From contig JADZAN010000028.1 of NCBI GenBank assembly GCA_020852815.1, forward strand, positions 62,001 to 126,000: DNA of 64,000 nucleotides, given 5' to 3'. The position numbers were made by a program, and so were the translations under genes. This stretch comes from Gemmatimonadaceae bacterium. GTDB lineage: Bacteria; Gemmatimonadota; Gemmatimonadetes; Gemmatimonadales; Gemmatimonadaceae. The notes below the pieces were generated by a model. It was given only the letters and a program-made list of their open reading frames with translations. It was not told where the DNA came from and made no database searches. Shown piece by piece: positions 1-14,727 of the stretch (its first letter is position 1; the number at the start of each line of letters is the position of its first letter).

Positions 1-631
1 CTTGCGGTCGATTCAACGTTCTTAGCTTGGTCGTGTCGCTCAGCAGGCTGGCGACGTCAACCGCCGAGCTGTCCTCGGTGCGACGAGCCGCGTCGTGGCG
101 CTGGGCGACGTCGCGCGAGACGGCGGGACGCTCATCGCCTTGCTCGACGATGGCCGACGCGAGCCCGCGTCCGGTCCACTCGCAGGGGGCGAGAACCGGC
201 AGCTCGGTCGAGAGATGCACTTGGCTCTTAGTCCGCGGCGTGCCGTCGATGGAGATGCGAAAGCGCAGACCCGGCAGTTTGGAGTGCAGGAGCCGCGCGA
301 CCGCGTCGGCGAAGGCCCCGGCGCCACTTGCGAAGTGGGCCTCGAAGTGTCCGCCATCGCGCGAGATAATGCCATCCTTCGCGTCGGCGGCGGGATCGTC
401 GTGATCCTTCAGCGGATCGTTCGAGTCGGCGGCAGGGTAGCTCTCCGAGCTTGGAGCCAACATCCAGCCGCAGCCAGCTTTTCGCGCCAACCCCGGCAGC
501 GCGATGCGCAGGGTCTCTCCTAGCAGCGCGTTTGCGCCAACCATCGCCCGCAGGCGCGGCACGGCGAAGAGCCACGTCTGTACACGCGAGAACTCGATGT
601 GGACGCGCTTAACCTTGGTGACGACGGTCAT
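1..631 (-). CDS. Cas10/Cmr2-like palm protein, N-terminal part (cut by window edge)
   Basis: An open frame of 210 codons starts at the ATG at 629-631 and runs off the left edge. It lies 37 bases after the cas8 stop in the same direction, so it is probably the third gene of the CRISPR operon. It does not look like Csb1 or Csb2, the proteins expected here. Residues 8-43 carry a strand followed by Q18, LF at 21-22, LR at 27-28 and GANALL at 32-37. That pattern recalls the start of the palm (cyclase-like) domain in Cas10/Cmr2 proteins. Near residue 150, a Cys followed by W-T-G recalls a degenerate version of the zinc-binding turn in such proteins. No HD motif is visible. The call is pattern recognition on a fragment. 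An uncharacterised Cas8 partner or RAMP protein is the alternative. The reading frame itself is well supported by its length and codon use. Confidence 0.5.
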   Translation of the reverse strand, partial: MTVVTKVKRVHIEFSRVQTWLFAVPRLRAMVGANALLGETLRIALPGLARKAGCGWMLAPSSESYPAADSNDPLKDHDDPAADAKDGIISRDGGHFEAHFASGAGAFADAVARLLHSKLPGLRFRISIDGTPRTKSQVHLSTELPVLAPCEWTGRGLASAIVEQGDERPAVSRDVAQRHDAARRTEDSSAVDVASLLSDTTKLRTLNRPQ

Positions 632-668
632 GTTGTCTTCTTCTTCATCGTAAAGACCACGAAATGAG

Positions 669-1667
669 TCATCCTCGAGTCTCCTCTCGCGCGAACGTCG
701 TGACCTTGTTCTTGCCGGACAGATCGAGATCAAACGCGAACCTACGCATCGGCAGCGGCAGATCGGCACCGGCGAGCGCAGCGCGCGCCAGCATCGGCGG
801 CAACGGATGCCCCCAGACGGCGTAGCGAACCTTGCGAGTCTCGTATTCGTCGGGCCGAGCGTGCTCGAGGCCAATCGCCGCGAGGATCTCCACCACTGGC
901 GAGGCGGCGATGGCGTCCTTTTGCGTGTTCGGTGAGTAGCCCGCGTCGATTGCCGTCCACGCACCGCGCGGATCGAAGTTGAAGCTGCCACCCATCGGTG
1001 TTACCACGTCGAAGGGCGCCCTCAGGAGGACCTCGCGTTGCTCCATCCAGAGTTGAGCCAGGCCTCGGTGCTTAAGCTCGCCGATCGATTGATGCTTCTT
1101 CGGTTTCGCGCGCACGCCCTGAAGCATCTGGGTCGCGATGCGGTAGGCCGACCGGTTTCCGGAATAGAGCTTGAAGTCATCACGCGAAAGCCACGGTGAG
1201 AAGGGACTCTTTCGAGACTCAGCCCAGTGGCTTACGACTAACCGACGACCTTCGTCCGCGAGCTGGACTGGAAGCGCGTTTCGATCGCCTTCGCCCGCGG
1301 GAAATACTGGCGTCGTGATGCGACGCTGCACCTCGCTAGAATCGTCGTCGAACTCACCACCGTCTTCACGTTCTATGGGCGTGGCGTCTTCCTCTCCGTT
1401 GTCGTCACCATCGGCTGCACCGCCTTCAACGTAGCCAATGGGTGTCAATTCGCTGATCTTCGCCTTCGCCAAGAACTCCAGGACGACCTCGAACGGGTTC
1501 TTGCCACCGTCAGCGCGAAGAACGAACGTCGCTTGCGCGTCGCTCCAGTCGAAGTGCGCCTCTACGCCGCCGAGCAGTACCTCTGCCGCCTCGAGGAAGC
1601 CCATGCAGGCGAGCACCTGGCCAGGGTTCCTGAGATCGACGAGGATGGATGCACTCATATGTGTCAT
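669..1667 (-). CDS. cas8: Type I-G (I-U) CRISPR effector protein Cas8, GSU0052 type
   Basis: A 332-residue protein expected to be the large subunit of a type I-G Cascade complex, helping target recognition and Cas3 recruitment. The N-terminus (near residues 8-24) has the LRNPGQVLACMGFLEAA signature of this Cas8 group. A mid-protein segment reads KLYSGNRSAYRIATQML, also typical. The acidic stretch around residues 70-120 is a variable insertion. The ATG at 1665-1667 overlaps the cas3 TGA by one base (TGATG), with AAGGAG a few bases upstream, so translational coupling to cas3 is likely. A longer in-frame extension upstream would run inside cas3 and lacks a comparable ribosome binding site. The small size separates it from the larger Csx17-type Cas8 used by other I-G systems. 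Cas3 followed by this Cas8 matches the Geobacter GSU0051-GSU0052 order. Confidence 0.85.
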   Translation of the reverse strand: MTHMSASILVDLRNPGQVLACMGFLEAAEVLLGGVEAHFDWSDAQATFVLRADGGKNPFEVVLEFLAKAKISELTPIGYVEGGAADGDDNGEEDATPIEREDGGEFDDDSSEVQRRITTPVFPAGEGDRNALPVQLADEGRRLVVSHWAESRKSPFSPWLSRDDFKLYSGNRSAYRIATQMLQGVRAKPKKHQSIGELKHRGLAQLWMEQREVLLRAPFDVVTPMGGSFNFDPRGAWTAIDAGYSPNTQKDAIAASPVVEILAAIGLEHARPDEYETRKVRYAVWGHPLPPMLARAALAGADLPLPMRRFAFDLDLSGKNKVTTFAREETRG

Positions 1668-4600
1668 CACGGCTGCTCCTTCTGCGCGATCGCGGCCTGC
1701 TGGTTGCGGCGCGACGCAGTCTGGTCTGCCGAGCGGAGAATCGCCTCCCACCATGCGAGCCCCCACGGCCCCCACAGTCTCGAGAGCCTTGCAGATCGAA
1801 GCGCGATCGCGCGCGCGCGCTCACTGACAATCGACGGCGGCGCATCGTCGCAGCCGCTGGTCTCGATCACTGGCCTGGCGAAACCGTGATGCGCCGCGAC
1901 GAGATGTAGAACGGAATCCTGGTCGTCTGTGCCAAGCGCCTTGAAGTCGCCATGGGCTTCAACGCAGGGCAGCGAGCCAAGCTCGTGTCGATAGCCGTCG
2001 AGGAGGTGGAAGTCGATCGGCCCTTTCGTCTTTGCGTAGGGGCGACCTTCGATCGGGGCCTTGAACGCGCGCTGCCAGCGGCCGGCCTGTTTTCCTTCGT
2101 CGTGAAGACGAGCGGACAGCACGAGCACATACGTGCGCGCCGCCCCGATGCCCAGTCGAGCCGCGATCTGTCGTGCGCACTCTACGGCGAGCGCTTGGTG
2201 CTCGCCGAGCTTCTGCGGATGATTCGCTTCTGCACGCTCTTCTTCCGTTGCCGCATCGCCCGCCCACCCATCGATCGCGAGAGCCGCAGACGGCTCACCG
2301 TCCACCATCTTCGTAACGAACACATAGCGGCGCACCCATCCTGCTCCTGGCGTCGTGCGCCACGCCGACTCGTCCTCTTCATTGGCGCCCAATTCACGAA
2401 TGCGAAACCCCGTCACCGGCACATCCGCGACGTCAGGGCGAGCGAGCCAGGTTGAGGAACAGTCGTCCGAGGCTGCTGCGATCGCGTTGCTATCGAGATC
2501 CAGGAGACCGTGGGTGAGTCCACCTAATTCCGCGTCGACCACTAGCGTCAACGATGTCAGAGATACATCGAACTGCTTGGCGGCTTCGTTCTTGAGCGCC
2601 TTGAGTTCATCGAGTTCCTTGCGCGTCCATCGCTGTTTGACCTCACCACGAGTTGAAAGTCCGACAGCAGCAATTCGCTCACCAGTCGCCAGTCCGTTGG
2701 CTTCAAGGAGCTTACCGGCGCGCTTCGACAGCCATTCACGCACGACGAACGCATCGGCCTCGAGTTGCTCGCTCGTGTGCGGAGGTGCAGCGTCGAAGAA
2801 GCGCTTCGCCGCCTTGGGGTCGAGGGGGCCGTCAGCTTGAACGGGCAGATGGCGTCGCCAGACCACAGTCGTCTGCGGCGGATCGTTAGGGCGAAAGCCT
2901 CGCAGCCACGGGTCAACGTCGGGCCTTCCGGGGTGCTCGTCGAGCGAAGTCATCGACCATGCATCGACCAGGGCGCGCGTCAGCTCGGGCCGAAGCGGCT
3001 CGGCGGACTTTGCGGCGGATAGAGCATCCGTTAGATCTGGGCGGTCACGCAGCTTCAGGAGAGCTTCGGGGCTCAAGCAGCCGCCGCCCTCCGCCACGGT
3101 GTCGAGCAGCTTTCGGAGGGCGCGGTGCCTTGCGACCTCCGCGTTGTGGCTGGCCACCGCTTTCGCGTCGGCGTCTTTGAACGCCGTGATGCTTCTTTGA
3201 GACACCGAGATCGACTGCTTCAACTCCTTAACAGCCTGCTTGCGCTTCTCTTCTGTAGCTTTGGCGTCGGTGGATGCCTTCTGGCCTTTCGGGATAGAGG
3301 CCTTCGCGCCCTGCAGGGCATGCAGGTCCTTGGTCAGCTCATCGACGCGCACTTTCGCCGCGTCGGATGCTTCGCTCTTCTTGAGGGCTGTCGTCATCCT
3401 GTCTGAGGGCGCCGGCTCACGGTCAACCACGACAACAACCTTCGCATCTCCATCACCGCGCCGATTCACGCGACCGAGCCGCTGGATCATCCGCTCCCAG
3501 GCGACGAGGTCACAGACCATGTGGTCGGCGTCCATGTCCACACCTACCTCACCTGCGCTCGTGGCAACGAGGAACGTTGGACCCTGCGGCTCGGCGCGAG
3601 TGCCGTCTTCCCGCTCCACGAAGCCATGGTCGACGAGCCACTTGGCCACCATCGTGCGCTCCAGCACTCGACGAGCGCCGACGAAGAGCTCGAAAATCGG
3701 CGGCGGCGCGCCCGTAGACGCCTTGAGCTTTCGCAGCGCGGAAGCGACCGCTAATGCGTCCTTGCGACTGTCGCAGAACACGAGGCATCGGACCCTTGCC
3801 GATCCTTGCTCCGTCAGCTGCCATGCGTGTCTGGCGAGTTCTTCGACGAGTGTGGGACCCTTGACTCTCGACGGTGCCTCGTCGGCCTCGTCAGCACTCA
3901 CACCCTCGTCCGTTCCAGCACTGGTCTTCGTCGCCGGTGCCAGATCGACAATGCGCAGCGTCTTCTTCGCGGCGAGGCGTTTCGCCACGATCGGGTGGAG
4001 TCGATCGGCCCCGGAGAGCGTCAGCGTCGCTGCATCGAGTTGGCGCCCCGTCGCCGATAGCGAGAGTACCTGGAAGGGAGGAACCAGTGCACGTAGCGAA
4101 GTGTCCTGCGGTCCGAACGCGTCTGCTCCACGCTCAACTTGTCTGAGAAGATCCTCGAAAGCAGGCACCAAGTGAGCCTCGTCGAGAACGACGAGCGCGT
4201 CTGCGCCGAGAAGTCCCGCATGGTAGGGACGCATCTTCGAGGAGACATAGCCCGAGAACAGGAGCCGCGAGCCTACCATGTCCACGGTGCCGACGATGAT
4301 GGCGGGCGACGATGGGTCCTCGAGCCACGCGCGATTGTCGACATGTTGGCCACGCAGCGTTGATATAGGCAGTCCGCGATCGTCGAGACCGAGGGCCTCG
4401 GCGACCTCTGGCTCTTTCGCCACCCACGCGCGCAGTGTCTCGGCGACCGCAGTCGCTTGATCAACCACGGCGCGACGATCGACGACGTAGACGAGTCGTC
4501 TGGGCAGCGACGCTCCGAGCGCTCGCGCGACCAACCACACGGCCATCACCGCGGTCTTTCCGAGACCAGTGGGGATATCGAGCGACGATACGGCTTCGCC

Positions 4601-6036: not shown

Positions 6037-6975
6037 CTACCCCCCACTCATCGCCGCACTCGCCGCCTTGTACGCCTCCGCATTCCAGAACGCCCGCCCG
6101 CACGCATCACCACCCTGCGCAATCGACTGCGCGTTGAACGTCATGCGCTGCGCGAACGCGTTGCCGTCCAACTGCACGGTGCGTCGCTCGCCACCCGACA
6201 GCTCCGACAACACGGTCACCCCCTTGGCCGCGTCGTAGCGCACGAAGACCACGGCCTCCGACCGCAGCTTGAGCATGAAGGCCGGCGTGAGCCCGCACGT
6301 CTTGGCACCATCGGCCGCGAGCGACTCGGCGCTGCGCGCAGAGGCGGGAGTTGGCGGCGTGGCGGCCTGCGACTGGATGGCCTTGAACTTGGCCGCGAGG
6401 GCCGCGGTGTCGGTGGTGGCGCCGGCGCCACCGGCAGCTGCAGCGCCCGACCCCTTGGCGGCATTGCGCCGAAAGGTGCGCTCGGTGATGGAGTCGGCCT
6501 GACAATCCATGATCTCACGACGATGCGCGATGACCTCGTCCTTGGTCCACTCGCGTTTCGTGCAGCCATAGTCGTCGGTGTACCCGGTGTCGGCGCTCTT
6601 CCCCTCCGGCGCGGGGGGGAGGAGCAGTTGCTGCGCGGCGAGCGAATCGCAGTCGTTGGAGGTGACCACGCCGCTCTGCGTCATGATGATGGTCGGAATG
6701 GCGGCGGTGCGCACCGACACGCGCCCGCTGGTGGGGTCGGTGGTGGAGATGGCGGGGCTGGAGAGGTTGGCCGGGCCCAGGTAGCCGGTCTTGATCCCTT
6801 CGAAGCAGGTGAGCCACTGGCCATCCTGCACCCGCAGCCGCCCGCGCACGGTGTACGTCTTCCCCTTGGCGGCCTTCTTGAGTTTGTCCATCAGTCCCTG
6901 CCCCTGCGCGGACTCGGCGAGAGTGACCAGCGCAACGGCGGACACCGCCAGGCGCAACGCGAACCAGCGTCTCAT
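6037..6975 (-). CDS. Secreted hypothetical protein
   Basis: A 312-residue protein with an N-terminal signal peptide (MRRWFALRL followed by a hydrophobic stretch and an AQG cleavage region), so it is exported. The start at 6973-6975 has GGAGG five bases upstream. An in-frame ATG 21 bases earlier lacks this. The mature part has a Lys-rich segment (MDKLKKAAKGK), several Cys residues, an Ala/Gly-rich linker near the middle and a C-terminal domain with two more Cys residues. No known family is recognised. It is monocistronic as far as can be seen, with the degenerate toxin locus downstream and a 200-bp gap upstream. Confidence 0.8.
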   Translation of the reverse strand: MRRWFALRLAVSAVALVTLAESAQGQGLMDKLKKAAKGKTYTVRGRLRVQDGQWLTCFEGIKTGYLGPANLSSPAISTTDPTSGRVSVRTAAIPTIIMTQSGVVTSNDCDSLAAQQLLLPPAPEGKSADTGYTDDYGCTKREWTKDEVIAHRREIMDCQADSITERTFRRNAAKGSGAAAAGGAGATTDTAALAAKFKAIQSQAATPPTPASARSAESLAADGAKTCGLTPAFMLKLRSEAVVFVRYDAAKGVTVLSELSGGERRTVQLDGNAFAQRMTFNAQSIAQGGDACGRAFWNAEAYKAASAAMSGG

Positions 6976-7176
6976 CCCAACCTCCGTGGAGTGCAAGACC
7001 AGTCAAAGGCCGGCAGTTGCGACTGCCGGACGACGCTCATCATGATGCACCGGCCGACGGGGGTTGACAACGCCCCGTGTCCCGCGGAGTCCCTCCTGAC
7101 CCAAACCGGGGCCCCGATACCTACCCCGGAGTGGCTGGACGGTAGCGTAGAGACCGGTTGAATGGGAGCGTAGACC

Positions 7177-8754
7177 CTACCGCCCCACCACCCCCCGCCG
7201 AATCGCCCTCCCCGGCAACGCCCCCCGCACCAGCTCACCAGCTCGAATCACCGGCACGCCGTTCACCACCACGTGCCGCATCCCCACGGAACGCTGGTTG
7301 GGCGCGGTGTACGTCGCCTTGTCGCTGACGGTGGCCAGATCGAACACCACCACGTCGGCGTCCTTCCCCACCTGCAAGCGCCCCTTTGCCTTCATCTGCG
7401 GCACGCTCTGCTCGAGGATCCTGGCGGGCGTGAGCGAGACGCGCCGGAGCCCCTCGCGCAGCTCGACCTTCTTGCGCTCGCGCACGTAGTCGCGCAGGAA
7501 GCGCGAGAAGGTCCCGGCGCTGCGCGGGTGCGCGAAGGCCTCGCTGGGGAGCGGCCACACATCGTCGGTGATGGTCTTGCCCTGCACGGTCCACGGCATG
7601 GCGTCGGACGCGATGGCGCCGCCGGGAAAGAGCACGGCCTGGTCGAGGTACGACTGGTCCTGCGGATTCTGCTCGGGACGCATGAAGTGGACGACGATGA
7701 ACGTTCCCGGCGCCTTCTCCTGCACCTCGGCCAAGGTGGAATCGTTGTACGGCTTGCCGTTCACCTCGATGTCACTCGCCCGGGCGCCGCCCATGCGCTC
7801 GCGCCAGTTGCCGCGGAAGATCTCCGCACCTACAACAGTGCTGCCGGCGGCGTAGGGATAGGCCTCGGTGGTCACCTTCACGCCGCGCGATTGCGCCCCG
7901 CGAATGAGCTCGGCTACCAACGGGATGTCGCGCGTGCTGGTGCTGTTGAGGTGACTGATGTGCATGTGCGCCCCGGTGCTCGCCGCCAGCGAGACCAGCT
8001 CCTCATACGCCTCGAACGACGACTGCGGCTCGATGACGCTCAGGTAGCGGATGTGCGTGAAGGTGGGGACGTCGTACTTCCTGGCCAGTTGCGCGAGCGC
8101 GAAGTACTCCTTGCGCCCGTAGCCGGGGGCGTAGCCGGCCAGCACGCCAATCCCGATGGCCCCCTCCTTGAGCCCCTGCTCCACACGCGCCATGATGCGC
8201 GCCGTTTCCTCGGGCGAGGCAATGGTGTACTGCCACCCCTTCTTGCGCTGCGCGTTCTGGAAGAACGAGATGTCGCCGTCGGGCTCCACGTGCTCCTTCT
8301 CGGCGATGCGCCCGAAGAGCCACGACGCCGAGAAGCCGTAGTTGATGGGGCGCCCCTCCTTGGCGACCTGCTCGTAGGCATGCGCCACGGGGAGCGTTCC
8401 CGCTTCGAGTTCGAGCGCGGTGGTCACGCCATCGAAGGCCTGCATGCGTGCCGCGGCCAGGTACTGCCCGTGCGCGTGCAGGTCGATGAAGCCCGGCGCG
8501 ACGACGAGCCCCCTGGCATCGAGCGTGTCCTTGCCGCGCAACGGCGTGGTGGAGATGGCGGCGATGGTTGCCCCGCGCACACCGACCCAGCGCGTGGCAT
8601 CGAGCCCGGTCTCGGGGTCGACGACGCGCCCGCCGGCGATGACGAGGTCGTACGTGGTCCCTTGGGCGGCGAGCGGCGAGGGGGGCGCCGAGGCGAAGGC
8701 CGACAAAAGAAGGGCCGCACAAGCGGCAAATGGGGCGGGAGCGACTGGGCGCAT
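7177..8754 (-). CDS. Secreted amidohydrolase, N-acyl-D-amino-acid deacylase (D-aminoacylase) family
   Basis: A 525-residue metal-dependent amidohydrolase with an N-terminal signal peptide ending near LAAQG. It starts with the small beta-sandwich strand YDLVIAGGRVVDPETG typical of the family. The metal-site motif is GFIDLHAHGQY, near residue 90, where simpler relatives have D-H-H/D-x-H. A THIRY segment and HISHLNS follow, the latter supplying further His ligands, and a late IASDAMPW supplies the catalytic Asp. The C-terminus ends with the usual KGRLQVGKDADVVVFD stretch. It probably removes acyl groups from N-acyl-D-amino acids or cleaves related amides in the periplasm; the substrate cannot be read from the sequence. 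It is divergent from the acyl-CoA synthetase gene, with 185 bases between them. Confidence 0.88.
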   Translation of the reverse strand: MRPVAPAPFAACAALLLSAFASAPPSPLAAQGTTYDLVIAGGRVVDPETGLDATRWVGVRGATIAAISTTPLRGKDTLDARGLVVAPGFIDLHAHGQYLAAARMQAFDGVTTALELEAGTLPVAHAYEQVAKEGRPINYGFSASWLFGRIAEKEHVEPDGDISFFQNAQRKKGWQYTIASPEETARIMARVEQGLKEGAIGIGVLAGYAPGYGRKEYFALAQLARKYDVPTFTHIRYLSVIEPQSSFEAYEELVSLAASTGAHMHISHLNSTSTRDIPLVAELIRGAQSRGVKVTTEAYPYAAGSTVVGAEIFRGNWRERMGGARASDIEVNGKPYNDSTLAEVQEKAPGTFIVVHFMRPEQNPQDQSYLDQAVLFPGGAIASDAMPWTVQGKTITDDVWPLPSEAFAHPRSAGTFSRFLRDYVRERKKVELREGLRRVSLTPARILEQSVPQMKAKGRLQVGKDADVVVFDLATVSDKATYTAPNQRSVGMRHVVVNGVPVIRAGELVRGALPGRAIRRGVVGR

Positions 8755-13903: not shown

Positions 13904-14416
13904 CTACCGCTTCTTCCCCAGGATCGTCCCTCGGCAATTGTCGGCCCCGCAATGACACGGAAAGCGCTTCTTGGCCGCGCTCGTGTGGCGCTCCTCGAGG
14001 ATGTAGGCGTAGTCGTACGCCAGCTCCTCCCCCGTCACGATGTCGCGGATGGTCTCGATCCAGATGCGCCCGTCGTCGATCACGGCGTCGCAGTTGGGAT
14101 CGCAGGAGTGGTTGATCCAGCGCGCCTCGTTCCCGTTCACGGCGGCGTCGACCACCACGTCGTCGTCGATGGCAAAGAGGAAGGTGTGGTGCCGCTCCCC
14201 CGCCACGTCGGGGTAGCGCGACTCGGCTTGGGCGGGGGTGAGGCGCTCGCCGGCGTACTCGATGAGGCGGACCCCCGGGGGGATGTAGCGCGTGGCGAAG
14301 GCCCCCATGCCCTGGATGGGCGAGTGACGGACCTCGAAGGGGAGCGCGGACGACTCGCCCCCGTGGTCTGGCGTGGGCGCTTTGCCGCCGGCCGTGAAGT
14401 GTGGATGGCTGGCCAT
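13904..14416 (-). CDS. SET-domain protein lysine methyltransferase
   Basis: A 170-residue protein that is almost entirely a SET domain, the S-adenosylmethionine-dependent lysine methyltransferase fold best known from eukaryotic histone methylation. It has GMGAFATRYIPPGVRLIEYAGE at the start of the domain, then the RWINHSCDPNC motif that forms the cofactor pocket, then GEELAYDY with the catalytic Tyr. It ends with a post-SET cysteine cluster, CHCGADNCRG, which together with the pocket Cys can bind zinc. All signature residues look intact, so it should be active. The target in a bacterium is unknown. The start chosen is the ATG near 14416; an upstream ATG adds 13 residues without a better ribosome binding site. 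Confidence 0.88.
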   Translation of the reverse strand: MASHPHFTAGGKAPTPDHGGESSALPFEVRHSPIQGMGAFATRYIPPGVRLIEYAGERLTPAQAESRYPDVAGERHHTFLFAIDDDVVVDAAVNGNEARWINHSCDPNCDAVIDDGRIWIETIRDIVTGEELAYDYAYILEERHTSAAKKRFPCHCGADNCRGTILGKKR

Positions 14417-14550: not shown

Positions 14551-14727
14551 ATGAACGACAAGCAGTTGCAGGCGTTGGTGAAGAAGAACGCCGCCAAGGC
14601 GGCCAAGGTGAGCCAGAAGCGCTCCGCCTACACCGACCCCACGCTCGCGGCGACGCGCCGTCCCGACCAGGGCGACGACTCCGACGCGCAGAAGATCTTC
14701 AAGGAGATGAAGAAGCGCGAGTTCTAG
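14551..14727 (+). CDS. Small Lys-rich hypothetical protein
   Basis: A 58-residue protein starting at ATG 14551 with CAGGAG upstream. It is highly charged (about one Lys in five residues) and predicted to be soluble and partly helical or disordered, ending KEMKKREF. It ends nine bases before the Sco-PCuAC gene, so it may be the first gene of that operon. No family is recognised. An earlier in-frame ATG at 14494 would add 19 residues, but the ribosome binding site supports the shorter form. Confidence 0.65.
   Translation: MNDKQLQALVKKNAAKAAKVSQKRSAYTDPTLAATRRPDQGDDSDAQKIFKEMKKREF

Follow-up and report, generated by a model that had tools for sequence, protein, structure and literature searches.

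A small SET-domain protein in a bacterial family, the Gemmatimonadaceae, and its candidate substrates

The SET-A gene and its active site

SET-A (P0001) is a small, 170-residue protein encoded by a Gemmatimonadaceae bacterium in the window, the whole stretch of 64,000 nucleotides that was analysed. The original prediction had placed an intact SET-domain gene at positions 13904-14416, and an open reading frame lies exactly there on the minus strand. Its match to the Pfam SET family (PF00856) spans residues 36-136 and reaches 82.5 bits against a cut-off of 22.4 (E = 3.4e-23), which excludes chance as the source of the assignment. The gene, its motifs and its divergent neighbour are arranged as follows:

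13904..14416, minus strand: SET-A gene, 170 aa (P0001), ATG start (open reading frame, Pfam, alignment and model)
14303..14311, minus strand: GxG motif G36-M-G38, invariant in the 23-row and 41-row alignments
14102..14113, minus strand: N102-H103-S104-C105 motif (alignments and 75-locus motif count)
14009..14017, minus strand: Y134-D135-Y136 (23-row alignment and 75-locus count)
13934..13957, minus strand: post-SET Cys cluster C154-x-C156-x4-C161 (alignments and 75-locus count)
13907..13915, minus strand: C-terminal K-K-R, closing the short RGTILxKKR tail that SET-A proteins typically have (sequence)
14551-14727, plus strand: 58-aa Lys-rich open reading frame, divergent from SET-A

An alternative in-frame TTG codon upstream of the ATG would give a protein of 183 residues. 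The SET core of P0001 corresponds to residues ~27-163, and residues 1-22 are variable and modelled with low confidence. The Pfam scan of P0001 yields the SET domain together with a sub-cut-off PRDM2 PR domain, and further domains, including ankyrin, are absent from it. The majority of the base differences between SET-A and three of its relatives are at third codon positions (11, 8 and 48 changes at positions 1, 2 and 3 for L026), as would be expected of a coding frame under purifying selection.

P0001 reads RWINHSCDPN and ELAYDY and thereby fits the SET active-site motifs R(F/W)INHxCxPN and ELxYDY. From what is known of the SET family we take G36-M-G38 to be the S-adenosylmethionine (AdoMet)-binding loop. 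The NHSC motif presumably forms the AdoMet pocket, and its cysteine (C105) is expected to act as a zinc ligand, the fourth beside the post-SET cysteines. Y136 is the expected catalytic tyrosine and Y134 the expected F/Y-switch position, an assumption carried over from work on KMT2A and SET7/9. The GxG glycines, N102, H103, C105, C109, the YDY motif and C154, C156 and C161 are invariant in the 23-row alignment, with S104 nearly so, and in the 41-row alignment G36, G38, N102 to C105, C109, Y136 and the three post-SET cysteines are invariant and Y134 and D135 nearly so. The search of both alignments for a lost catalytic residue found none missing from P0001. The predicted zinc ligands C105, C154, C156 and C161, which are those of the KMT2-like post-SET class, are likewise present and invariant in both.

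Motif counts over 75 SET-A and SET-A-like loci give the same picture. NHSC is kept in 74 of them, the exception being L163 which has NHAC, and YDY is kept in all 75. The GxG motif is found in 75/75 loci with a widened pattern and in 61/75 with a stricter one. CxCG-x3-C is kept in 73 loci; of the two misses L208 is without the first post-SET cysteine, and L192 keeps the three cysteines and is without the glycine. The NHSC pocket, the tyrosine motif and the post-SET cysteine cluster that had been read from the window are thus all present and nearly always conserved.

In searches against solved structures the best match to P0001 is human KMT2A/MLL1, both with the single sequence (E 2.2e-28, best 60 of 130 chains) and with a profile (E 1.1e-37, best 60 of 129 chains), and the best 60 chains of either search include none named as bacterial. 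An AlphaFold model of P0001 built from 41 sequences has a mean pLDDT of 83.4 and is confident over the domain; residues 1-22 fall below 50, and residues 71-80 are the least certain block of the core with a mean of 67. Foldseek places MLL1 at the top of the matches to this model (E 1.6e-14, TM 0.70, 40% identity), and the 50 matches listed are SET domains of the KMT2/Set1, SETD2, NSD and ASH1L kinds. P0001 is therefore predicted by its model to adopt the SET (pseudo-knot) fold. The SET domain of KMT2A/MLL1 (PDB 2w5y, 7u5v, 7w67) shares with it the SET core, NHSC, YDY, the post-SET cysteines and the switch tyrosine. The differences are that P0001 is only about 40% identical to KMT2A and has no other domain found in it, and that nucleosomes are not expected in its host. 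MLL1, moreover, requires accessory subunits. In sequence identity P0001 stands nearer to the SET proteins of other bacteria (44-82% in the 41-row alignment) than to KMT2A. Taken from its sequence, P0001 is very probably an AdoMet-dependent lysine methyltransferase which acts inside the bacterium.

Distribution, descent and gene neighbourhood

The host genome is a 5.38-Mb draft with five SET matches. On host contig C2 (about 119 kb) an open reading frame at 6057-7892 on the minus strand (L059) combines a D-Ala-D-Ala-ligase-like ATP-grasp domain (PF07478, 1.1e-23) with a SET match (PF00856, 3.4e-10). This odd ligase-SET fusion aligns over nearly its full length in two other genomes, G002 (87% over 469 aa) and G010 (57% over 471 aa). 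Host contig C41 (37 kb, L060) holds two more, divergent SET matches separated by about 11 kb.

Among 40 relatives of the host, a SET match is present in 24/24 genomes of its own family, in none of nine genomes of family f2 and in two of seven of family f3. A phylum-wide draw finds SET matches in 182 of 395 genomes, this set of 395 being taken as common to the SET, SWIB and HC2 scans. The family of the host (Gemmatimonadaceae, f1) accounts for 139 of 140 sampled genomes, a count made by hand from listings and partly by subtraction, as are the other counts for this family; one genome (G299) has none and another (G053) has a weak match (1.2e-5). Outside the family SET matches occur in seven genomes of the sister families f2 and f3 and in 36 genomes of other families of the class. 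The SET-A subfamily itself is found in about 64 of the 140 genomes, with one copy broken by a contig end. A second clear kind, SET-B, is about 45-57% identical to the SET-A of the window. The genome scan as a whole holds at least 583 SET relatives. The original prediction had described a eukaryote-like lysine methyltransferase whose bacterial members are scattered. Its first part agrees with the motifs and with the KMT2/MLL class of the nearest structures, whereas the second part does not hold for SET-A, given the near-complete coverage of the sampled family and the number of relatives.

In a quick tree, in which 48 of the 109 inner branches are drawn open, the 31 SET-A rows all come from this family or phylum and form one clade with an SH-aLRT of 93. 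The clade lies near SET-A-like genes from other Gemmatimonadota families. SET-B rows are mixed with those from Myxococcota, Rhodospirillales and others, and KMT2A, the one eukaryotic row, sits on a very long branch. The distribution of the gene and the SET-A clade fit vertical inheritance, and the best reading of these sequences is that SET-A is an endogenous gene which is passed on vertically with the bacterial family. SET-A as phage cargo was considered and rejected. A collection of 50,697 phage records contains no SET-A match at E 1e-5, and only distant matches are found among plasmids, where 48 of 72,556 records match, all at below 60% identity, 44 of the 48 coming from Paraburkholderia, Caballeronia or Burkholderia.

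The surroundings of SET-A were compared over the 75 loci with gene calls from a simple codon-position scorer and not from a trained gene finder, so that some genes may be missing from the neighbour tables or be split in them. The SCO1, SWIB, dehydrogenase and L131 topoisomerase neighbours were scanned with Pfam, and the helicase and BirA neighbours were named by reading their sequences. Conservation of the neighbours does not reach beyond small groups of loci, and since none is general over the 75, SET-A seems to be a stand-alone gene. Its commonest neighbour is a DEAD-box-like helicase, which lies inside the fetched stretch in 26/75 loci from four genera, that of the host not among them. An obligate partnership with this helicase was rejected, as it adjoins SET-A in only 22/75 loci, all from genera g14 and g23. 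The recurrent neighbours include no recognised SWIB gene or H1-like cluster.

In the host the divergent side of SET-A carries the 58-aa basic open reading frame and a SCO1/PCuAC protein. A SCO1/PCuAC cluster is near SET-A in five of the 75 loci, three from the host genus and two from genus g37. The 58-aa Lys-rich protein has no match in Pfam or NCBIfam. Of 41 genomes of the order 35 have a relative of it, and 21 of these 35 are without SET-A. Among 20 loci searched it adjoins SET in three, all from the host genus. It forms a widely kept family of its own. Its candidacy as a SET-A substrate was dropped because the pairing is local and the relatives are widely kept without SET-A.

Lysine-rich tails and candidate substrates

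A Lys/Arg-rich C-terminal tail was defined as one of at least 25 aa with K+R at 30% or more. None of the 65 SET-A loci of the family carries a long basic C-tail (L192 lies outside the pattern). Such a tail is present in 5/15 SET-B proteins, in 1/10 SET-A-like proteins of other families and in 18/66 of the relatives outside SET-A from the genome scan, a set in which Gemmatimonadota SET-B types are counted and which shares members with the 15. In L202, from a genome (G045) of another family of the class, a SET-A-like domain is followed by a very long Lys/Arg-rich tail, which makes this protein a link between the tail-less SET-A and its tailed relatives.

Two proteins with H1-like basic tails were found in the host genome. 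One is a SWIB protein (L225; PF02201, 1.5e-24) with an N-terminal tail of KKAA-type repeats, and the other (L228) is acidic and has no Pfam match:

543-1334 of host contig C9, plus strand: L228 acidic protein, 263 aa, with a strongly acidic first half and a Lys/Ala H1-like, KKAA-type C-tail

A KKxxKK pattern in the DNA occurs at three places in the host and at none in the reversed control. Only the one on C9 lies inside a Lys-rich open reading frame; the other two (L227) are in a stretch without one. HU was considered as a tailed substrate and set aside, the one HU found in the host (L069) having no Lys-rich tail.

Linkage of a SET gene to a tailed topoisomerase is seen only in proteobacterial relatives. 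The SET genes of Burkholderiales and Myxococcota are 44-59% identical to P0001 among the matches listed; several have Lys-rich C-tails, and the genes around them differ and include a topoisomerase that often ends in SWIB. A topoisomerase directly adjoins the SET gene in 13 of 80 loci from Burkholderiales and unplaced Proteobacteria. Eight of the 13 have a Lys/Ala stretch and a SWIB-like end, two are complete without SWIB (L130, L135) and three are cut by the end of the locus. A BirA-like gene, read from sequence, is found in 11 of the 13. One of these topoisomerases has been checked with Pfam:

3-2954, minus strand: L131 topoisomerase, with a Lys/Ala-rich stretch and a C-terminal SWIB domain, beside a SET gene

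The host SWIB protein matches the end of PRK14724, an NCBIfam model of topoisomerase III, and the existence of this model means that a topoisomerase III-SWIB fusion was already known. No paper on SWIB with topoisomerase III in bacteria was found in the literature searched.

Co-occurrence tests of the idea that basic tails are the substrates are mixed or negative. SWIB matches are found in 131/140 genomes of the Gemmatimonadaceae, 57/255 others and 0/14 control genomes. Outside the family no link was seen between SWIB and strong SET matches (7/18 with against 50/237 without, p = 0.14) or any SET match (11/43 against 46/212, p = 0.55), and SWIB with a basic N-tail is present in all six of the f2 and f3 genomes examined that had no SET match in the comparison of 40 relatives, although one of these tails is very short. 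The H1-like family HC2 weakly tracks any SET match outside the Gemmatimonadaceae (13/43 against 16/212, p = 1.5e-4) and strong SET matches (5/18 against 24/237, p = 0.04), both with kinship ignored. In family f6 no HC2 match is found in 11 genomes despite strong SET matches. Within the Gemmatimonadaceae HC2 matches are present in 80/140 genomes; in a smaller sample they were found in 15/25 of this family and 0/16 others, but five turn up in f2 in the larger draw. As a marker HC2 performs poorly, since only 22 of the 395 genomes exceed the cut-off and many matches contain stop codons. Some of the matches are the tails of SET or SWIB proteins themselves (e.g. G199:C104, G353:C15). The match in the host (6.6e-4) is under the cut-off and shows no Lys-rich open reading frame; of the 12 HC2 stretches fetched four lack such a frame, that of the host included.

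Proposed function and its alternatives

It is proposed that P0001 is a single-domain SET lysine methyltransferase and that its substrates would be the host's own nucleic-acid-binding proteins with H1-like Lys/Ala tails, a reading drawn by analogy which is a real but tentative possibility. As is usual for this enzyme family, P0001 would bind S-adenosylmethionine, the substrate lysine would enter a channel beside Y136, and the tyrosine at switch position 134 would lead mainly to the addition of one or two methyl groups. With less certainty, the candidate substrates would be the SWIB protein with its KKAA-type N-tail and the acidic protein with its KKAA-type C-tail. Methylation of the tails could tune their binding to DNA or to partners, and a SET-B protein with a basic tail of its own may be held on the DNA by that tail. 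In a broader version, this would amount to a family-wide endogenous chromatin-like system in which SET-A is free in the cytoplasm, the tailed SET-B is tethered to DNA, and both methylate the H1-like tails of SWIB and other nucleoid proteins, thus regulating the packing of DNA; this version is rather unlikely.

The nearest parallel for methylation of H1-like tails is found in Chlamydia, whose cells likewise combine a SET protein with H1-like and SWIB proteins and where action on H1-like tails has been proposed. The cpnSET protein of Chlamydia pneumoniae is reported in a review to bind Hc1 and Hc2 and to methylate Hc1 (Murata 2007, via PMC3980110). NUE of C. trachomatis methylates itself, likely at the adjacent K209/K210, and did not methylate Hc1 (PMC2904774), and methylation of Hc1 is disputed even within Chlamydia. 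A 'chromatin' set of SET, SWIB and topoisomerase is proposed for the Chlamydiae in another paper (PMC6426960), and the topoisomerase-SET-SWIB gene set of the proteobacterial relatives resembles it. What sets the host apart from Chlamydia is that searches for TssK and YscJ/FliF recognised no type VI secretion TssK and no injectisome-type gene.

An endogenous SET methyltransferase could instead act on an abundant housekeeping protein such as a ribosomal protein, EF-Tu, an RNA helicase or another enzyme, which is also possible if somewhat doubtful. Many bacterial methyl-lysines are indeed found on proteins of translation, SET-A has no DNA-binding tail, and the DEAD-box-like helicase lies near the gene in part of the SET-A loci. 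The adjacency to this helicase is, however, confined to g14 and g23, and even its wider occurrence in four genera leaves out the genus of the host. Furthermore, SET enzymes which act on ribosomal proteins, of the Rkm and SETD6 type, to our knowledge lack a post-SET cluster, unlike P0001.

The KMT2-like domain of P0001 would suit a secreted nucleomodulin with host histones as its target, the role reported for NUE, RomA/LegAS4 and BaSET. Legionella RomA/LegAS4 is reported to be secreted and to act on host histones. The same is stated for BaSET of Bacillus anthracis in a 2014 review (PMC3980110). The sole NCBIfam match of P0001 is to the LegAS4 model (LegAS4/AnkI), at 37.6 bits and thus far below its cut-off of 550, and the Pfam scan of P0001 shows no ankyrin domain. 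SET is present in nearly the whole sampled family; going by their titles, its named members are mostly MAGs. The host genome has no match to type VI TssK (PF05936), and its only YscJ/FliF match is one 522-aa frame which is probably the flagellar FliF. Taken together, a role as a secreted effector is very unlikely. Slightly more remote still is a SET fold without methyltransferase activity that works as a binding domain; residues 71-80, the weakest block of the core model, would leave some room for it, but an enzyme that had lost catalysis would not be expected to retain its catalytic motifs in almost every one of the 75 loci.

Bacterial SET proteins have long been known. The 2014 review puts the number of bacterial genomes with SET hits above 500 and makes the case for an origin in bacteria (PMC3980110). 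Their near-universality in one family is less expected. No paper on a SET protein of Gemmatimonadota was found in the literature searched, which leaves most subscription journals outside it. On bacterial SET together with nucleoid and lysine-rich proteins the same literature yielded only papers on pathogens, judged by their abstracts. Discussion of bacterial SET proteins has mostly treated them as weapons turned on the chromatin of a host, and what they act on within bacterial cells is a matter of debate. A family that carries SET almost universally, next to SWIB and H1-like tails, would be a clean place to ask of what use these enzymes are to the bacterium, and whether histone-tail methylation in some simple form also occurs in organisms other than eukaryotes.
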